From: Actinomycetes bacterium
GTDB taxonomy: Bacteria; Actinomycetota; Acidimicrobiia; Acidimicrobiales; JABEUL01
Assembly (NCBI GenBank): GCA_021790815.1
Contig: JAJYFT010000014.1
Location: 1 to 32,177, forward strand
Direction: 5' to 3'
DNA length: 32,177 nt
The notes under the pieces: model-generated
Databases searched by the model: none
The model's input: the letters and a program-made list of their open reading frames with translations, nothing else
What the model was told of the DNA's origin: nothing
Program-made: the position numbers and the translations under genes
Shown here: positions 6,872-28,311 of the stretch, piece by piece
Layout of the letters: each line of letters opens with the position of its first letter
How positions within the stretch are numbered: position 1 is the stretch's first letter

Positions 6872-7936
6872 TTAAATTACCTCTTCAAAAAAAATGTTAT
6901 TTGTAGAGTTTGATGGCGCTATTGGTGCCGTAGATGTAATTAACGTCTGTGACCCATTCGTAATTTCAAGAATTTTTAATACTCTTTCTTTGTCCAATTC
7001 GCTGGTTAAATCATCGAGTAAAAGAATTGGTTGATCTTTAAAATCATCTAATAAAATCTCATAACACGAAAGAATTAGAGAAATTGCTATACTTCGTTGT
7101 TCTCCTCTTGACGCCATACTTCTTGCGTCTCTGTTTTCTATGGTAATTTTTAAATCATCTCTATGGGGACCAACCGTGGTCATCCCTTTTTTAATGTCTT
7201 CTTGCTGCGCCTTTAGTAGTGCATCCGAATATGGCAACTTGGCACTTAGTTCATAGTCAAGATTCACCCTATCGTTTGTTGCGCTGATTGTTTTATAAAG
7301 GCTACAAACTTTTTCATTTAACTTATTAATTAAAGCTATACGCTCGTGAATAATGAGCTCTCCAGATGGAGCAAGTCTGTCATTCCACACGGTAAGTGTT
7401 GACTTATCATCTTCTTTTAACCTACCCCCAATCTGTTTTAGCAAAATATTTCTTTGCCTCAAGGCTTTATTGAAATAATTAAGGTGATAATTTAAAGTTG
7501 GTTTAAGGGATAGTAAACTTTTATCTAGAAACTCTCTTCTTTTTTCGGCTGGTCCTGAAACGAGGAGTGAGTCTCTTGTTGTAAATAATACGGTTTTAAT
7601 TAGATCGTCTTTTAAGCCATCTCGTTCCAAAAGTATTCTTGGTTCTCTATTAAATGCCATTTTCTCTTTTACAATTTTAACTTTTCCATTAAAAGTTGTG
7701 TCTTTATAGCGGGCTTCACCAATAACTAGGGCTTCGTTTTCGTCTGACATTAAGAGAGCACCCCTAGGAGTACCTGGGAACGTCTCACCCTTTAGTAAAA
7801 GTTCAATTGCTTCAAGAACCGTTGTTTTACCTATACCATTTTTCCCGTAAATAACTGTTGGGGTGCTGCTAGGAAATTGGAGTTTTAATGATTTTATGGA
7901 GCGTAGGTTTTTAATTACAATAAACTCAATATTCAT
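6872..7936 (-). CDS. recF: DNA replication and repair protein RecF
   Basis: RecF is an SMC/ABC-like ATPase that helps load RecA at gaps through RecFOR. At 354 residues it is close to the usual 360-370. Walker A is YGKNGIGKTTVLEAIE at about 31-46. The family motif GPHRDDLKI, the ABC signature region (SRGEQRSIAISL) and Walker B with the D-loop (ILLLDDLTSELDKER) all follow in order. The N-terminal IKNLRSIKSLKLQF is typical. It begins 12 bp after dnaN, so the two are probably co-transcribed. Confidence 0.96.
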   Translation of the reverse strand: MNIEFIVIKNLRSIKSLKLQFPSSTPTVIYGKNGIGKTTVLEAIELLLKGETFPGTPRGALLMSDENEALVIGEARYKDTTFNGKVKIVKEKMAFNREPRILLERDGLKDDLIKTVLFTTRDSLLVSGPAEKRREFLDKSLLSLKPTLNYHLNYFNKALRQRNILLKQIGGRLKEDDKSTLTVWNDRLAPSGELIIHERIALINKLNEKVCSLYKTISATNDRVNLDYELSAKLPYSDALLKAQQEDIKKGMTTVGPHRDDLKITIENRDARSMASRGEQRSIAISLILSCYEILLDDFKDQPILLLDDLTSELDKERVLKILEITNGSQTLITSTAPIAPSNSTNNIFFEEVI

Positions 7937-7948
7937 TAAGTTTGTTTT

Positions 7949-9055
7949 CTACACCCTTACTGGCATCAATAAGTATTTGTAATCCTCATTTTGGGTTGAG
8001 TGAATTAATGTAGGCTGGCCTTTTCCTGCAATTCTAATCAAAACTTCGTCACCTTCTGCCGCTTCTACTCCTTCAATGAAGTAATTAGGGTTAAATGACA
8101 ATTGGGTACTTTCGCCTGTTACTGATGCATCAATTTGCTCTTTTGCATTTCCTATTTCTGGCGTTACAACAGATAGTTCTACCATTCCATCGTCAGCTAG
8201 TAGTCTAACCGAAGACATGGTGTCTTTAACTAGAAGGCGCATCCGTTTGAACGCTTCAATTAATGAACTCTTTTTAACGGTAATTTCTTGTAAATAATCT
8301 TTTGGGATTAACTGCTCATACCTCGGGAATTTGTCATTTATTAGTTGGGTTGTTAGTGTTGTTTCACCAATACGAAAACTTGCATTTCCTTCTGTTAGGC
8401 GCACATATATCGTATCTATATTACTCCCGAGTGAATCATTAATTACTTTAACTTCTTCTAGCGCTCTTGCTGGAACTAGAACTGAGTTTGCTTCACTGAA
8501 TGACTTTGATTCTGCAACGTCTCTAATGGAAAGACGGTATGAGTCGGTTGCAACTAATCGGAGTCTGTCGTTGTGGTTGGTTACATATACTCCGGTTAAC
8601 ACTGGTCTAATTTCGTCATTTGACGCAGCTTTTGTTACTTGAGAAACAGCTGAAGAAAATTCATTCGCGGGAAGTGATAATTCTTCTCCTTCTAGTGGTG
8701 TTATTGGTGGATAAGCTTCAACTGGGTAAGTTGGGGTTTCAAATCTTGCTCTTCCCCCCTCAATTACGCCTAACTCATCTTCTACGGTAACAGTTACTTT
8801 TCCTTCAGGCATTGATTTAAAAATATCTACGAATAATCGCGCCGGAATTACAGATGTTCCATCTTTTATCCCAGATACTTCGATATTAGTTTCAATTGTT
8901 GTATCAATATCTGTTGCAGAAATGTTTAGTGAATTACCAAGAAGAATCATTCTTATCATAGTTCTTGATAGTGGGCCAGAGCTTTTTGACGGTATTGCTC
9001 TTGCAACAATACTAAAACTCTTTGCTAAGTATTCTTTTTCAGATGAAAAACGCAC
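7949..9055 (-). CDS. dnaN: DNA polymerase III beta sliding clamp
   Basis: This is the ring-shaped processivity clamp that tethers DNA polymerase III and binds many partners. At 368 residues it has three repeated clamp folds and ends in YKYLLMPVRV, the conserved C-terminal strand that helps form the partner-binding pocket. The start is GTG at 9055, with AGAGG nine bases upstream. It is separated from dnaA by 224 bp holding the origin, the normal actinobacterial dnaA-oriC-dnaN arrangement. Confidence 0.97.
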   Translation of the reverse strand: MRFSSEKEYLAKSFSIVARAIPSKSSGPLSRTMIRMILLGNSLNISATDIDTTIETNIEVSGIKDGTSVIPARLFVDIFKSMPEGKVTVTVEDELGVIEGGRARFETPTYPVEAYPPITPLEGEELSLPANEFSSAVSQVTKAASNDEIRPVLTGVYVTNHNDRLRLVATDSYRLSIRDVAESKSFSEANSVLVPARALEEVKVINDSLGSNIDTIYVRLTEGNASFRIGETTLTTQLINDKFPRYEQLIPKDYLQEITVKKSSLIEAFKRMRLLVKDTMSSVRLLADDGMVELSVVTPEIGNAKEQIDASVTGESTQLSFNPNYFIEGVEAAEGDEVLIRIAGKGQPTLIHSTQNEDYKYLLMPVRV

Positions 9056-9144
9056 AGCGGTTATCCTCTCTATAAATTTTTATTTAAATTCTTTATCAGT
9101 AATAATAAAGCATGTGGATTGTGGATATCTTTGTATATCACGAG

Positions 9145-9162
9145 GTAGAATCAGAATTCTAC
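9145..9162. repeat. 7-bp inverted repeat in oriC
   Basis: GTAGAAT (9145-9151) and ATTCTAC (9156-9162) are perfect arms with a 4-base loop. It lies between the reverse-oriented DnaA boxes near dnaN and the larger 11-bp repeat. No T-tract follows on either strand, so a terminator is unlikely. Confidence 0.5.
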
Positions 9163-9177
9163 TACCCTTAGATATAA

Positions 9178-9205
9178 TTGTTTTACACAATGGTGTGTAA
9201 AACAA
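9178..9205. repeat. 11-bp perfect inverted repeat in oriC
   Basis: TTGTTTTACAC (9178-9188) and GTGTAAAACAA (9195-9205) are perfect complements separated by 6 bp, lying 27 bp from the perfect DnaA box. The dyad looks like an operator for a dimeric protein or a cruciform-prone origin element. It is not a DnaA box. The binding protein is unknown. Confidence 0.6.
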
Positions 9206-9279
9206 AACAAGTTTAAAAAATTTGTTTGCGGTTATCCACAATTGTTAGTTTTTATCAACAAACTGTCCCTTACCAATTA

Positions 9280-10638
9280 CTAACCGTTATTACTCTTAAT
9301 TTTTACTACCAAAGCGGTCACCTGGTCGTAAATTGACCTCTTTTCACCCATTTTGTTTGCTATTTTGTCTACGGCATATATGACAGTTGTATGATCTCTA
9401 TTCCCAAACTCTTTTCCAATTGATGGATAGCTATAGTTAGTAAGTTCGCGGAATACATACATTCCAATTTGTCTAGCATGAACTAATGGTTTTCTCCGAC
9501 TTGGGCCTTTAATTTCTTCAATAGGAAACCCAAATGCTTCCGAAACGGCATCAAGGATCATTTTGGGAGTAATCTGCTTAGGTTCTGAGTTCGACAATAT
9601 ATCCACTAAAACAGACGCAGCTAAATCAGATGATACAACAAGATTGTTTAATGAGGCGTATGCACTGACCCGAATTAACGCACCTTCTAACTCTCTTATG
9701 TTTTCTTTGACGTTTGAGGCGATAAACTCAAGAACGTCGTCAGGAACCTGAAGTTTCGCCTTCTCTGCTTTAGATCGTAAGATTGCTAAGCGGGTTTCTA
9801 GCTCGGGTGGTTGAATATCCGTAATTAAACCTGACAGGAATCTACTTTTAAGCCGGTCTTCAATAGTAGCGAGGGCTTTAGGTGGACGATCCGACGTTAT
9901 AACCACTTGTTTTGAAGCCCCGTAAAGAGAGTTAAACGTGTGAAAAAACTCTTCTTGTAACTGTTCTTTTCTTTCCATAAACTGCACATCGTCAACTAGT
10001 AGGACATCACATTCGCGGTAACGGCGTTTGAAAGCGGTTGGTGTGTTAGATCTTAAAGAATCAACGAACTCATTCATAAAAGTTTCCGTCGAGACATAAC
10101 GAACGAGTAATGCCGGAAAATGTTCAAGAATATAGTTTCCTATAGCGTGAAGCAAGTGAGTCTTTCCTAATCCAGCATCACCGTGAATAAAGAGAGGGTT
10201 GTATGATTTTCCTGGAGATTCAGCTACAGACATAGCGGCAGCATGAGCGAACCGGTTGGATGGACCAATGACAAAAGAATCAAAAATGTATTGACGATTA
10301 ACAAGCTTTGTAGCATTTTGTGTAGAAGAATCAGTAGATTTTGGCATTTCAGAAATTGAATTTTCCGGAAAAATTTCTTTTATAAAAATGGTTTCTCGAA
10401 TTACCAATTGAACCTTTAGTGGTTTTTGATTACATTCAGCGACAGTTTCTTCGATTATTCCTAGGTATCTGGTTTCAACTCTATCTTTTACAAGTGAAGA
10501 TGGCACTGAAAGCTGAAGGAGTTCGCCGTCTATGTTTTTTGGTTCAATTCCAGAAAGCCACGTGTTCCAAGTAGCTTCAGAAACTTGACTTTTTATTAAT
10601 TCACTACATTCATTCCACAGACTAATATGTCTTTCCAC
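9280..10638 (-). CDS. dnaA: Chromosomal replication initiator protein DnaA
   Basis: DnaA is the AAA+ initiator that binds DnaA boxes, melts oriC and recruits the helicase. Domain I begins LWNECSELIKSQVS. Domain III has Walker A GDAGLGKTHLLHA, Walker B DVLLVDDVQF and the sensor region VVITSDRPP. Domain IV ends with the DNA-binding signature GNRDHTTVIYAVDKI. The frame extends to TTG 10653, but GTG 10638 has GGAG nine bases upstream and puts domain I at the usual distance, so I prefer 10638 (452 residues). DnaA-box-like sites upstream suggest autoregulation. Confidence 0.97.
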   Translation of the reverse strand: MERHISLWNECSELIKSQVSEATWNTWLSGIEPKNIDGELLQLSVPSSLVKDRVETRYLGIIEETVAECNQKPLKVQLVIRETIFIKEIFPENSISEMPKSTDSSTQNATKLVNRQYIFDSFVIGPSNRFAHAAAMSVAESPGKSYNPLFIHGDAGLGKTHLLHAIGNYILEHFPALLVRYVSTETFMNEFVDSLRSNTPTAFKRRYRECDVLLVDDVQFMERKEQLQEEFFHTFNSLYGASKQVVITSDRPPKALATIEDRLKSRFLSGLITDIQPPELETRLAILRSKAEKAKLQVPDDVLEFIASNVKENIRELEGALIRVSAYASLNNLVVSSDLAASVLVDILSNSEPKQITPKMILDAVSEAFGFPIEEIKGPSRRKPLVHARQIGMYVFRELTNYSYPSIGKEFGNRDHTTVIYAVDKIANKMGEKRSIYDQVTALVVKIKSNNG

Positions 10639-10665
10639 GTGCACTTTCTCCAAATTTCATCTATA

Positions 10666-24421: not shown

Positions 24422-25801
24422 ATGATTTCAGATAGATTTAAGTCAATTTTAGGCACTGCAAGTAAGATAGCCGATAAGTTTAAAGAACATAACAAGGATC
24501 TTTACTTAGTGGGCGGTAGTGTTCGCGACATTTTAAACGATTCTGAGCAACCGCTTTACGACCTAGATTACACAACAAATGCCCGACCAAATGAGATAAG
24601 CAAGATTTTAAGTGAGCTAACCTGTTCTCTTTGGAAACAAGGAATTGAGTTTGGGACCGTTGGGTGTCTTTTTGAGGGAATTCGGCATGAAATTACTACA
24701 TTCAGGCAAGAAACATATATCCCGGAATCGCGAAAACCTGCTGTAATCTTTGGGGAGAGTCTAGAAGTTGATCTATCTAGGCGTGACTTCACAATAAATA
24801 CGATTGCTATGGATCTTTCAAATATGGAAATCATTGATCCATATAACGGACGTTATGATTTAGAAAGAGCCGTCTTAAAGACCCCTCTATCACCTGAAAT
24901 ATCATTTAGTGATGATCCATTGCGAATGCTTCGAGCAGCACGATTTATATCCTCTCACAACTTGGCACCTGTGGAGGAATTGGTTAGTGCAGTTCAAATG
25001 CTTAATGATCGCATAAATGTTGTGTCAAAAGAGAGAATTCGAGATGAACTCGATAAACTTCTTACAACAAATGATCCTTCAAATGGGCTGTGGTTTATGG
25101 TAGATAATGGCCTTACGGCGCATTTCTTGCCTGAACTTGACGCACTAAAGCTTGAGCAGGACCCCATTCATAAACACAAAGATGTGCTAGCGCACACTAT
25201 CGCGGTCGTTAGCAAGACGTCACCTAATAAAATAACACGCCTATCTGCACTTTTTCATGATATCGGCAAGCCAAAAACAAGGTCTTACTCTCCTCAAGGT
25301 GTAAGTTTTCACCACCATGACGTGGTTGGAGCAAAAATGACCAGAAAACGTATGGCCGAGCTCCACTATTCAAGGGAGGATACTGAAAAAGTTTCAAAAC
25401 TTGTTTTTTTGCATTTAAGATTTCATACTTACAGCTTTGGATGGACAGACAAGGCTGTTAGAAGGTATGCCAAAGATGCTGGGGACCTACTTTTAGAGTT
25501 GAATGAACTTACTAGGTGTGACTGTACTACCCAAAATGAGAAAAAGGCTAGAGAGTTAGCAGAAAGAATGGATGAACTTGAGCGACGGATAGATGAACTT
25601 GCAGAGAAAGAAGAACTTAGCAAATTAAGACCTGAAATTGACGGTCAAGAAGTAATGGAGATATTAGATCTCAAACCGTCTAAACAAGTTGGCATAGCTT
25701 TAGATTGGTTAATGGAGCTTAGATTAGATGAGGGTCTTCTTGGTTCAGATGAAGTTAAGCATCGATTAGTTGAATGGTGGAGTAAGGAGCAGCACTCTTA
25801 G
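24422..25801 (+). CDS. pcnA: CCA tRNA nucleotidyltransferase / poly(A) polymerase family, with HD domain
   Basis: A class II nucleotidyltransferase, probably adding or repairing the CCA end of tRNAs. The catalytic motif is LVGGSVRD (29-36) with metal-binding Asp47 and Asp49 in YDLDYTT. Motif [12 protein letters not shown] is at 120-131 and [12 protein letters not shown] at 164-175. An HD domain ([12 protein letters not shown], His279-Asp280) suggests added phosphohydrolase activity, as in related enzymes. The 459 residues fit the family. The mutT gene found beside pcnA in M. tuberculosis is missing. tRNA-Ile here lacks an encoded CCA, so CCA addition is needed. Confidence 0.94.
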
Positions 25802-25808
25802 AGTGCAA
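25794..25808. terminator. Hairpin GCACTC-TTA-GAGTGC across the overlapping pcnA and ino1 stops
   Basis: A 6-bp stem with a 3-base loop contains the stop codons of both convergent genes, which overlap by 4 bp. No T-tract follows. It could slow both transcripts, but it may simply be a by-product of the overlap. Confidence 0.4.
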
Positions 25809-26865
25809 ACTCCTCTATCATCTTTCTGGCCACATCGTCAGTAAATTGAACTGGTGGAGATTTCATGAAATAGGCACTGGGACCTTCAAGAGGACCAGAT
25901 AACCCTCTATCGAGCCCAATTCTTGCGCATCTTAATGCATCGATGATTACGCCCGCTGAATTTGGTGAGTCCCAAACTTCAAGTTTAAGCTCAAGATTTA
26001 GTGGAACGTCTCCAAAGTTCCTACCTTCCATCCGTATGTAAGCCCATTTTCTGTCTTCAAGCCATGGAATATGATCCGAAGGTCCAATATGAACCGAATC
26101 TTCTGGAAGTGGGTTTGTGAGTTGACTTGTGACTGCTTGGGTCTTCGAGATCTTTTTTGACTCAAGACGGTCTCTCTCAAGCATGTTTTTAAAGTCCATG
26201 TTGCCGCCGACATTTAGTTGATAAGTGCGATCTACCACTAATCCCCTATCTTCAAATAGGCGTGTAAGAACCCTGTGAACAATTGTGGACCCTACCTGGC
26301 TTTTTATGTCATCGCCAATAATTGGGACTCCAGCATCCTTGAATCTTTGGGCAAATTCGGGATCGGAAGCTATAAATACTGGAATTGCATTGATAAAAGC
26401 GACACCGGCTTCAAGACAAGCTTCGGCATAGTGACGCTGAGCCATCTCTGAACCTACTGGGAGGTAAGAAACCAATACTTGAGCCTCAGTTTCTTTTAGT
26501 ACTTTAACCACGTCAACTGGTTCTTCAGGGGATTCCTCTATTGTGGCCCGGTAGTACTTTCCTAACCCGTCTAGAGTTGGTCCTCGCATCACCGTAACAC
26601 CAGTGGCTGGTATGTCTGAAAATTTAATTGTATTGTTTTGGCCTGAAAATGCTGCCTTGGAAAGGTCTGTACCCACTTTTGTTGCGTCTACGTCAAATGC
26701 TGCAACTGGTACCAAATCGTTGATGTGGTATTGACCCAGTTTAACGTGCATCAAACCCGGAATCTCGAGATCAGGATCTGCATCTTTGTAGTAGTTCAAT
26801 CCTTGAAGAAGTGAGCTAGCACAGTTACCAACTCCTGCAATCGCAAATTTTATTTTATCAGTCAT
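25798..26865 (-). CDS. ino1: Inositol-3-phosphate synthase
   Basis: An NAD-dependent enzyme converting glucose 6-phosphate to 1L-myo-inositol 3-phosphate, the first step to phosphatidylinositol and, in many actinobacteria, mycothiol. At 355 residues it is the short bacterial type. The Rossmann motif [16 protein letters not shown] is at the N-terminus. Landmarks include [38 protein letters not shown] and [18 protein letters not shown]. The start is ATG 26865 with a strong GGAGGA just upstream. It is co-directional with padR upstream, as in M. tuberculosis (Rv0046c-Rv0047c). Confidence 0.97.
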
Positions 26866-26886: not shown

Positions 26887-27537
26887 TTAATCAGTTGCTA
26901 CAGCAGAGTTGAGAGGCTCAATCTGCTCATTTGTTTGCTCACCATTGTTTTTTTCCTCGTTATTAATGAGGTTTTCTAGCCATGTAAGCTCGGCTGTAAT
27001 GATTGCAAGAGACCTATCAATTAAGGTACTTTTGCAAACAGATTCTTTAGAATTTTGTTCGCTTTGAATTTGTTCCAACTTAGATTTGAGGCTGTACCTA
27101 TGCATATTAAGCAGTGCAAGTCGAGCCGAAGACGGTAGGAATTTAGAAAATGCCAATTTTACTAGAAACATCTTTGAATCACTGTGATTGTCATTTATAG
27201 GTTCGTTCAACATCTGAAGGAGAAGATTTTCACCAAATGGGGTAATTCTATATACCTTTTTGCTCCTTGACCGTTTAATTTCTTGGCTTTCTACATCTTT
27301 TCTTTTGTAAACGGCTTTTTCGCCAGAAAGAGAGCCGGGAGAAAAAGTAAGTTTTTCTTTCGGTGATGGTGAAATCTCTTCAACTGCACCAGTTTGAGAT
27401 AGGTGCTTTAAGGTTGGATACAAAGAACCGTAGGACGCGGTTAAGATGCCTCCGAGTTCTTCTCGAACCTTGCGTCTTATCTCGTAGCCATGAAGATCAG
27501 AATCTTTTAGTAATGCTAAAACTGCTATTTCAATCAA
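26887..27537 (-). CDS. PadR-family transcriptional regulator
   Basis: 216 residues. The N-terminal winged helix begins IEIAVLALLKDSDLHGYEIRRKV, with SYGSLYPTLKHLSQTGAV as recognition region, both diagnostic of PadR. An inserted polar stretch (about 55-90) precedes RSKKVYRITPFGENLL. The C-terminal Vir-type helical region (about 110-190) probably dimerises. The start is TTG 27537, with no clear ribosome-binding site, so the mRNA may be leaderless. It sits 21 bp before ino1 and probably controls it and itself through the TATATCG array upstream. Confidence 0.92.
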   Translation of the reverse strand: MIEIAVLALLKDSDLHGYEIRRKVREELGGILTASYGSLYPTLKHLSQTGAVEEISPSPKEKLTFSPGSLSGEKAVYKRKDVESQEIKRSRSKKVYRITPFGENLLLQMLNEPINDNHSDSKMFLVKLAFSKFLPSSARLALLNMHRYSLKSKLEQIQSEQNSKESVCKSTLIDRSLAIITAELTWLENLINNEEKNNGEQTNEQIEPLNSAVATD

Positions 27538-27583
27538 GTTTTATAAACACGCTTTCATTGTTGCTCAAACTAATAAACATAAT

Positions 27584-27626
27584 TATATCGCTAAAATATA
27601 TCGTTAAGTTATATCGTCTCGATATA
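27584..27626. promoter_or_regulatory. Operator-like TATATCG array between padR and DUF5318
   Basis: TATATCG occurs three times at exactly 13-bp spacing (27584-27590, 27597-27603, 27610-27616). The third copy forms an inverted pair with CGATATA at 27620-27626 (3-bp centre). The block lies 47 bp upstream of padR and 57 bp upstream of the divergent DUF5318 gene. A dimeric regulator, most simply PadR itself, is the likely ligand. Confidence 0.7.
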
Positions 27627-27670
27627 TCATATCACAAAATTATATATGTCTGTGCACTAAATTTTTTAGG

Positions 27671-27682: not shown

Positions 27683-28081
27683 GTGCAAATATCGCCAGAT
27701 TTACGAACCGCAGGGAGTGTTTCCGGCGGAACTCTTGAGTTCAGTTTAAAGAAATCTCTATTATTAAATGACTATCGTTCAGGGAAGATACTTAAGAGTG
27801 ATATTTGCGATGCCCACCCCGAGCTTCTTCGAGCAGCTAAAAATGTTGGTCGGATTACAGAGGATGCATGTCCTATCTGCGAATCGGGAATACTTATTCA
27901 CGTTTTCTTTGCTTTTGGCAAAAGACTACCTTCTGGTGGTCGTTGCGTAACTTCTACGCATGAATTGGAGCAAATTGTCTCAAAAGATTCTTCTATATCG
28001 TGCTACGTCGTTGAGGTATGTGCAGAATGTGGATGGAACTACCTGCTTAGTTTACTGATGATGGGTAATAACAAGATTTAG
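27683..28081 (+). CDS. DUF5318 family protein with paired CxxC motifs
   Basis: 132 residues. Two zinc-binding pairs are visible: Cys63-x-x-Cys66 (DACPICESG) and Cys113-x-x-Cys116 (VCAECGWNY). The central LIHVFFAFGKRLPSGGRCV and VVEVCAECGWN are typical of the actinobacterial DUF5318 family, of unknown function. The start is GTG 27683. It diverges from padR-ino1, as its counterpart does in mycobacteria, where a penicillin-binding protein follows; here none does. Confidence 0.87.
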   Translation: MQISPDLRTAGSVSGGTLEFSLKKSLLLNDYRSGKILKSDICDAHPELLRAAKNVGRITEDACPICESGILIHVFFAFGKRLPSGGRCVTSTHELEQIVSKDSSISCYVVEVCAECGWNYLLSLLMMGNNKI

Positions 28082-28116: not shown

Positions 28117-28311
28117 TTAGACTTGATCTGCTTCGACAAGCACGAAAGGATAGTTTGAAGTGCAAGAATTACACCACTCTTCAATTTCATCCATCACCGT
28201 CTCTGAGCCAACACTATCCCAGCTTTCCGGGACAATGTACACTCGCCTTACAAGTGTTAGTGTGACTTCACTTGAACCACAATTCTCACAAGTACCTATC
28301 AACAATTTCAC
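28117..28311 (-). CDS. Small zinc-ribbon protein
   Basis: 64 residues with Cys8-x-x-Cys11 (TCENCGSS) and Cys47-x-x-Cys50 (EWCNSC), forming a likely single zinc ribbon around LVRRVYIVPESW. The start is GTG 28311, with a weak GAG just upstream. It is convergent with DUF5318. The pattern resembles a small conserved actinobacterial protein, but I cannot name the function. Confidence 0.7.
   Translation of the reverse strand: MKLLIGTCENCGSSEVTLTLVRRVYIVPESWDSVGSETVMDEIEEWCNSCTSNYPFVLVEADQV

Follow-up and report, generated by a model that had tools for sequence, protein, structure and literature searches.

The array of short AT-rich repeats in the 145-bp gap between padR and a divergently transcribed DUF5318 gene is very probably an autoregulatory operator of the adjacent PadR repressor, an ortholog of mycobacterial NapM that would repress the padR-ino1 operon, with extra half-sites in this lineage. 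The gap lies within a 32,177-nucleotide stretch of contig JAJYFT010000014.1 (an Actinomycetes bacterium of the Acidimicrobiales), referred to here as the window, and the relevant features are as follows.

25798-26865, minus strand: ino1, inositol-3-phosphate synthase (Pfam Inos-1-P_synth, E 5e-36), presumed second gene of the controlled operon
26887-27537, minus strand: padR, 216 aa with a TTG start, a PadR-family winged-helix regulator (Pfam PadR, PF03551, E 2e-15), presumed binder of the operator
27581-27590, no strand assigned: outermost unit AATTATATCG, 26 bp before the core; weaker dyad at 27585-27599 (10/12)
27594-27603, no strand assigned: extra unit AAATATATCG, 13 bp before the core; weaker dyad at 27598-27612 (10/12)
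27607-27629, no strand assigned: core operator AGTTATATCG-TCT-CGATATATCA, with perfect inner halves TATATCG-N3-CGATATA (27610-27626) and an inner dyad of 12/12
27683-28081, plus strand: divergent DUF5318 gene (Pfam DUF5318, E 3e-27)

The heptamer TATATCG occurs at 27584, 27597 and 27610 on the plus strand and at 27620-27626 on the minus strand, and the initial annotation was thus correct in describing three copies at 13-bp steps followed by one inverted copy. The window holds ten copies where 2.44 are expected, and four of them fall inside 43 bp. Among 20,000 dinucleotide-preserving shuffles of the gap none contained four copies, nor did any have three copies on one strand at equal steps; the repeats are genuine and well beyond what chance would give. 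The array is better read as four 10-bp near-palindromes with the consensus CGATATATCG, namely AATTATATCG starting at 27581, AAATATATCG at 27594, AGTTATATCG at 27607 and CGATATATCA at 27620, each step being exactly 13 bp, which turns one unit by about 86 degrees relative to its neighbour. The inverted fourth half-site that had been singled out as a special element is nothing more than the following unit of the 13-bp lattice, since the units are palindromic. In an alternative register the same bases form three tandem N3-centred dyads of the type ATATCG-N3-CGATAT (27585-27599, 10/12; 27598-27612, 10/12; 27611-27625, 12/12), and the two units nearest DUF5318 make up a perfect dyad, TATATCG-TCT-CGATATA. 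The outermost unit contains TATAAT on the minus strand (27587-27582), a possible -10 element of padR that was assigned by eye.

That such repeats arose by chance or by mutational expansion in AT-rich DNA, or that they are a transcription terminator, is scarcely credible. The gap is only 24% G+C, as this explanation would have it, but an identical motif at an identical step is found in genomes of 60-75% G+C, none of the shuffles reproduced the array, and conservation in itself refutes such an origin; base composition does not account for an AT-rich site in genomes that are for the most part G+C-rich. Examination of the gap showed no terminator-like structure, and the idea of a terminator or hairpin was dropped.

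Orthologs of padR with the same neighbours are present across the order and the phylum, and an operator of the form CGATRTATCG-N3-CGATAYATCG lies upstream of orthologous padR-ino1 operons across the Actinomycetota. The initial annotation had called for a comparison of the gap in relatives, and there the repeats prove to be conserved: a core dyad matching at at least 10 of 12 positions is present in 97 of 100 gaps (0.95% of shuffles), at the position that the core operator occupies in the window. The spacing is equally characteristic, as 88% of 100 padR upstream regions carry a pair of CGATATATCG-like units scoring at least 16/20 at a step of 13, a score that no shuffle of these regions reached at that step. 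At other steps such pairs occur in 0-6% of the 100 regions, with the exception of a step of 26 – twice 13 – at 18%. Likewise, the mean best unit-pair score at 26 loci peaks at a step of 13, with 17.1/20 compared to 11.6-13.5 elsewhere.

The pattern of conservation also bears on where the dyad is centred. Across 98 loci the inner halves are kept at 9.5/10 positions and the outer halves at 8.1/10 (p 5e-13). The commonest change, A-to-G at -7 (34 occurrences), is mirrored by T-to-C at +7 (9 occurrences) around the 3-bp spacer and not around the unit centre, which would pair it with the changes at -6 (T-to-C, 4) or +6 (A-to-G, 6), and in four mycobacterial-type genomes the operator is reduced to RTATCG-N3-CGATATA. 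With the inner halves best kept, and with only these remaining in the mycobacterial sites, the dyad TATATCG-N3-CGATATA put forward in the initial annotation is the right core. These same observations argue against an arrangement in which every 10-bp palindrome CGATATATCG takes up a dimer of its own and successive dimers stack at 13-bp intervals. We consider this rather unlikely notwithstanding the perfect palindromy of the consensus unit, the existence of arrays of three to four units, and the presence of three units at 13-bp steps upstream of a different PadR gene (L111, below).

In the window the two additional flanking units are both on the padR side. The right half of the flanking unit at -1 scores 2.24/5 on the 13-bp lattice versus 0.9-1.7 off it, and the left half of unit +2 scores 1.95/5 versus 1.1-1.5; partly conserved flanking half-sites of this kind suggest that more than one dimer may bind. 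The wrapped or multimeric assembly envisaged in the initial annotation is no more than a possibility. A direct comparison of flanking dyads at offsets of ±13 and at other offsets (46% vs 0.6%) is inflated, because each flanking dyad reuses half of the core units, and the independent half-site scores are the safer evidence. Covariation between flanking half-sites, a possible prediction of a stacked-dimer model, was not seen. We note that L004, L005 and L006, which belong to the window's family, have a symmetric 2+2 array (TATAGCG, TATATCG / TGATATA, CGCTATA or close variants) where the window has 3+1, and unit number thus varies within the family.

The operator occurs about once per genome. The exact core TATCG-N3-CGATATA is found at one place in the 2.44-Mb draft genome, and it is likewise unique in four mycobacterial-type genomes of 5.6-7.5 Mb, where it lies upstream of napM. 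With up to three mismatches allowed, the 23-bp operator gives 72 sites in 68 of the 148 genomes of the order, and a reversed control pattern gives none in the same 148. Two other candidates in the organism's own genome, a near match at the 3' terminus of an argJ-like coding sequence (C53:12599) and a core match inside dnaN at window position 8407, were put down to chance. Genome-wide, single CGATATATCG units show no enrichment over a control (58 and 57), and a large regulon of single units was therefore dropped from consideration.

Where the operator occurs, it nearly always adjoins padR. This is so in 65 of the 68 site-bearing genomes of the order, where the median distance to the gene is 31 bp; a strong padR ortholog is present in 80 of the 148 genomes, and of the 68 that lack one just 2 carry a site (Fisher p 5e-25). 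The 18 aligned PadR proteins differed too much from one another to serve for a search of the wider collection, and the DNA pattern was scanned instead: across 84,980 species genomes the perfect 23-bp site is found in 38 stretches, 36 of which adjoin a PadR gene, with 34 of the 38 preceding a padR of the padR-ino1 type. At L124, where the stretch is cut off, the sequence adjoining the perfect site reads by eye as the beginning of a PadR gene. A conserved dyad at the padR promoter that is specific to padR makes the array a probable member of the autoregulatory operators of PadR proteins. Another of the 38 stretches, from a Gemmatimonadetes metagenome-assembled genome, carries three CGATATATCG units in 13-bp steps ahead of a PadR-type gene of a different kind (L111:688-760); this operator type may extend to other subfamilies of PadR, or misbinning of the contig may explain the finding.

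An alternative is that some other regulator – an inositol or zinc sensor, or a homolog of the LacI-type regulator IpsA – reads the site and that padR is merely among the genes controlled. IpsA is a known regulator of ino1 in corynebacteria (PMC3899939), but the site is found with padR and not elsewhere, including upstream of the unrelated PadR genes of L111 and L124, and the known IpsA site of M. tuberculosis lies inside the Rv0047c reading frame and not upstream of it (PMC3899939). We regard this alternative as very improbable.

A second question is whether the operator also serves the divergent DUF5318 gene, such that one array coordinates both transcription units. The site does lie in a shared divergent gap in most genomes, and an alignment of DUF5318 proteins reveals five invariant cysteines (C42, C63, C66, C113 and C116), suggestive of a likely zinc site in a zinc-ribbon-like protein. 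In mycobacteria the padR-ino1 pair responds to zinc, both genes falling together upon its addition to M. smegmatis (PMC7174638), and in combination with the cysteines this hints at a link through zinc. The site, however, tracks padR and not DUF5318: it stays at padR in spite of intervening genes (L040, L041, L046, L034, L093 and L122) and where DUF5318 is 640-910 bp away, it is absent from 11 DUF5318 loci that have no adjacent padR, and its distance to DUF5318 in directly divergent cases is a loose 58-243 bp. Coordination of inositol synthesis with DUF5318, as proposed in the initial annotation, is thus not supported in that form, and joint control by the one array is a possibility that we hold to be doubtful. 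Directly after DUF5318 and converging on it, a 64-aa ORF at 28117-28311 on the minus strand (MKLLIGTCENCGSSEV...CNSC) has two cysteine pairs and is also zinc-ribbon-like.

The PadR protein is an ortholog of mycobacterial NapM (Rv0047c), as judged from its fold and from conserved synteny. An AlphaFold model (mean pLDDT 84) has M. tuberculosis Rv0047c (8JXK) as its best PDB match (E 6e-9, TMt 0.82), followed by BsPadR and Rv1176c, and shows the PadR fold with C-terminal dimerisation helices, as in subfamily 1 (about 180 aa or more). Tyrosines Y18 and Y40 are invariant in the PadR alignment and correspond, as read from alignments, to the PadR signature tyrosines Y20 and Y42 of BsPadR (PMC6457526). 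As with NapM orthologs, padR is directly upstream of ino1 – which follows after 21 bp on the same strand – with DUF5318 nearby; at L034 the PadR, which also precedes ino1, gives a full-length match to 8JXK (E 8e-110). The ino1 product matches the NCBIfam family mycothiol_INO1 with E 3e-180 at 599 bits, slightly under the cut-off of 638. The presence of recF-like, dnaN and dnaA genes at 6872-10653 on the minus strand places the window near the replication origin, and the gene numbers Rv0046c-Rv0047c suggest the same proximity in M. tuberculosis.

We envisage that a PadR dimer would bind directly to TATATCG-N3-CGATATA (27610-27626), the dyad at the padR promoter, and would, we infer, repress rather than activate the padR-ino1 operon in this organism, the repressor thereby setting its own level together with that of inositol-3-phosphate synthase, until some signal releases it from the operator. 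The two further half-sites at 13-bp steps would probably load additional dimers side by side for tighter repression. Mycobacteria transcribe padR and ino1 together, and control of ino1 by this regulator had been suspected before (PMC3899939). When napM is deleted in M. smegmatis, ino1 expression goes up and no pathway is de-repressed more strongly than inositol phosphate metabolism (PMC13340245), which supports the inositol link drawn in the initial annotation. Its proposal of a PadR array controlling inositol synthesis is well supported, as a predicted binding, by conservation linked to padR-ino1 and by the occurrence of about one site per genome.

Several observations stand against autorepression. 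Deletion of napM could alter ino1 merely because napM is the upstream gene of the same operon; the window PadR is just 28% identical to NapM; and a scan for the padR promoter found nothing above chance level. Two perfect 23-bp operators, furthermore, have no PadR gene nearby, one in Micromonospora rubida between methyltransferase-like and MFS-like genes (L100:4391-4413) and one inside a longer perfect palindrome in an 'Oleiphilus' metagenome-assembled genome (L114:6077-6099). A regulator with a single target also does not fit the 573 places that NapM is reported to bind in M. tuberculosis, as cited in PMC13340245. Descriptions of NapM as a nucleoid-associated, DNA-bridging protein that antagonises DnaA come from mycobacteria only (PMC6377630, PMC13340245); the protein is scarce, about 800-fold below the abundant nucleoid proteins (PMC13340245). 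We consider the odds evenly balanced that NapM and its orthologs act fundamentally as local repressors of their own operon, napM-ino1, with a single high-affinity operator on a 13-bp lattice in each genome, and that the genome-wide, 'nucleoid-associated' effects are secondary or of low affinity.

Inositol from Ino1 feeds mycothiol and the inositol lipids of the actinobacterial cell wall, and ino1 is reported to be essential for mycobacterial viability (PMC3899939). The regulator beside it has been a suspected controller with no known binding site in the papers found, studied in mycobacteria as a nucleoid-associated and general chromosome-binding protein, whereas the present data point to one specific site per genome. 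An operator found throughout the phylum at about one site per genome is a directly testable target and a probe for gel shifts and reporters, and it offers a means to separate specific repression from general DNA binding. A literature search that included the motif letters together with PadR found no earlier report of this operator in searchable papers.

The operator belongs to a known family, the PadR operators, and is not categorically new; its architecture, near-single occurrence and link to NapM go beyond the routine. Canonical PadR-family operators, such as those of LmrR, PadR and bcPadR, have the form ATGT-N8/10-ACAT (PMC3506622) and, as here, are inverted repeats at the promoter of the PadR gene. 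The present operator differs in its extended palindromic units on a fixed 13-bp lattice – a lattice of two to four units being unusual among described PadR operators – and in its core, TATCG-N3-CGATA rather than ATGT/ACAT, with a spacer of 11 and not 8-10. The window core, TATATCG-TCT-CGATATA, therefore falls outside the canonical ATGT-N8(-10)-ACAT form, and relatives come at best to ATGT-N11-ACAT, which is contained in the frequent variant CGATGTATCG-N3-CGATACATCG.

The operator of cdPadR1 from Clostridium difficile, TACT-N11/12-AGTA in two copies in its own promoter (PMC5050560), matches in half-site separation, and cdPadR1 is likewise an autoregulatory PadR: two inverted repeats with an AT-rich core precede its gene, and several shifted complexes are seen. 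The operator differs in sequence, in its flexible spacing and in having about 200 motif matches per genome, as compared to about one here. NapM (Rv0047c, MSMEG_6903; PDB 8JXK) is the orthologous PadR upstream of ino1, and in the four mycobacterial-type genomes napM is preceded by the core operator, although the protein is described as nucleoid-associated and as a DnaA antagonist; a text search of PMC13340245 (2026) found no DNA motif or binding site for NapM. A mechanistic analogy, though not a relative, is provided by the (GGTATA)3 operator of E. coli NanR (PMC8012715), in which three phased short repeats, cooperating repressor dimers and a repressed promoter are combined; NanR is of the GntR family, has another effector domain and uses direct repeats only. 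NanR (PMC8012715) and cdPadR1 (PMC5050560) provide precedents for arrays of the kind described here.
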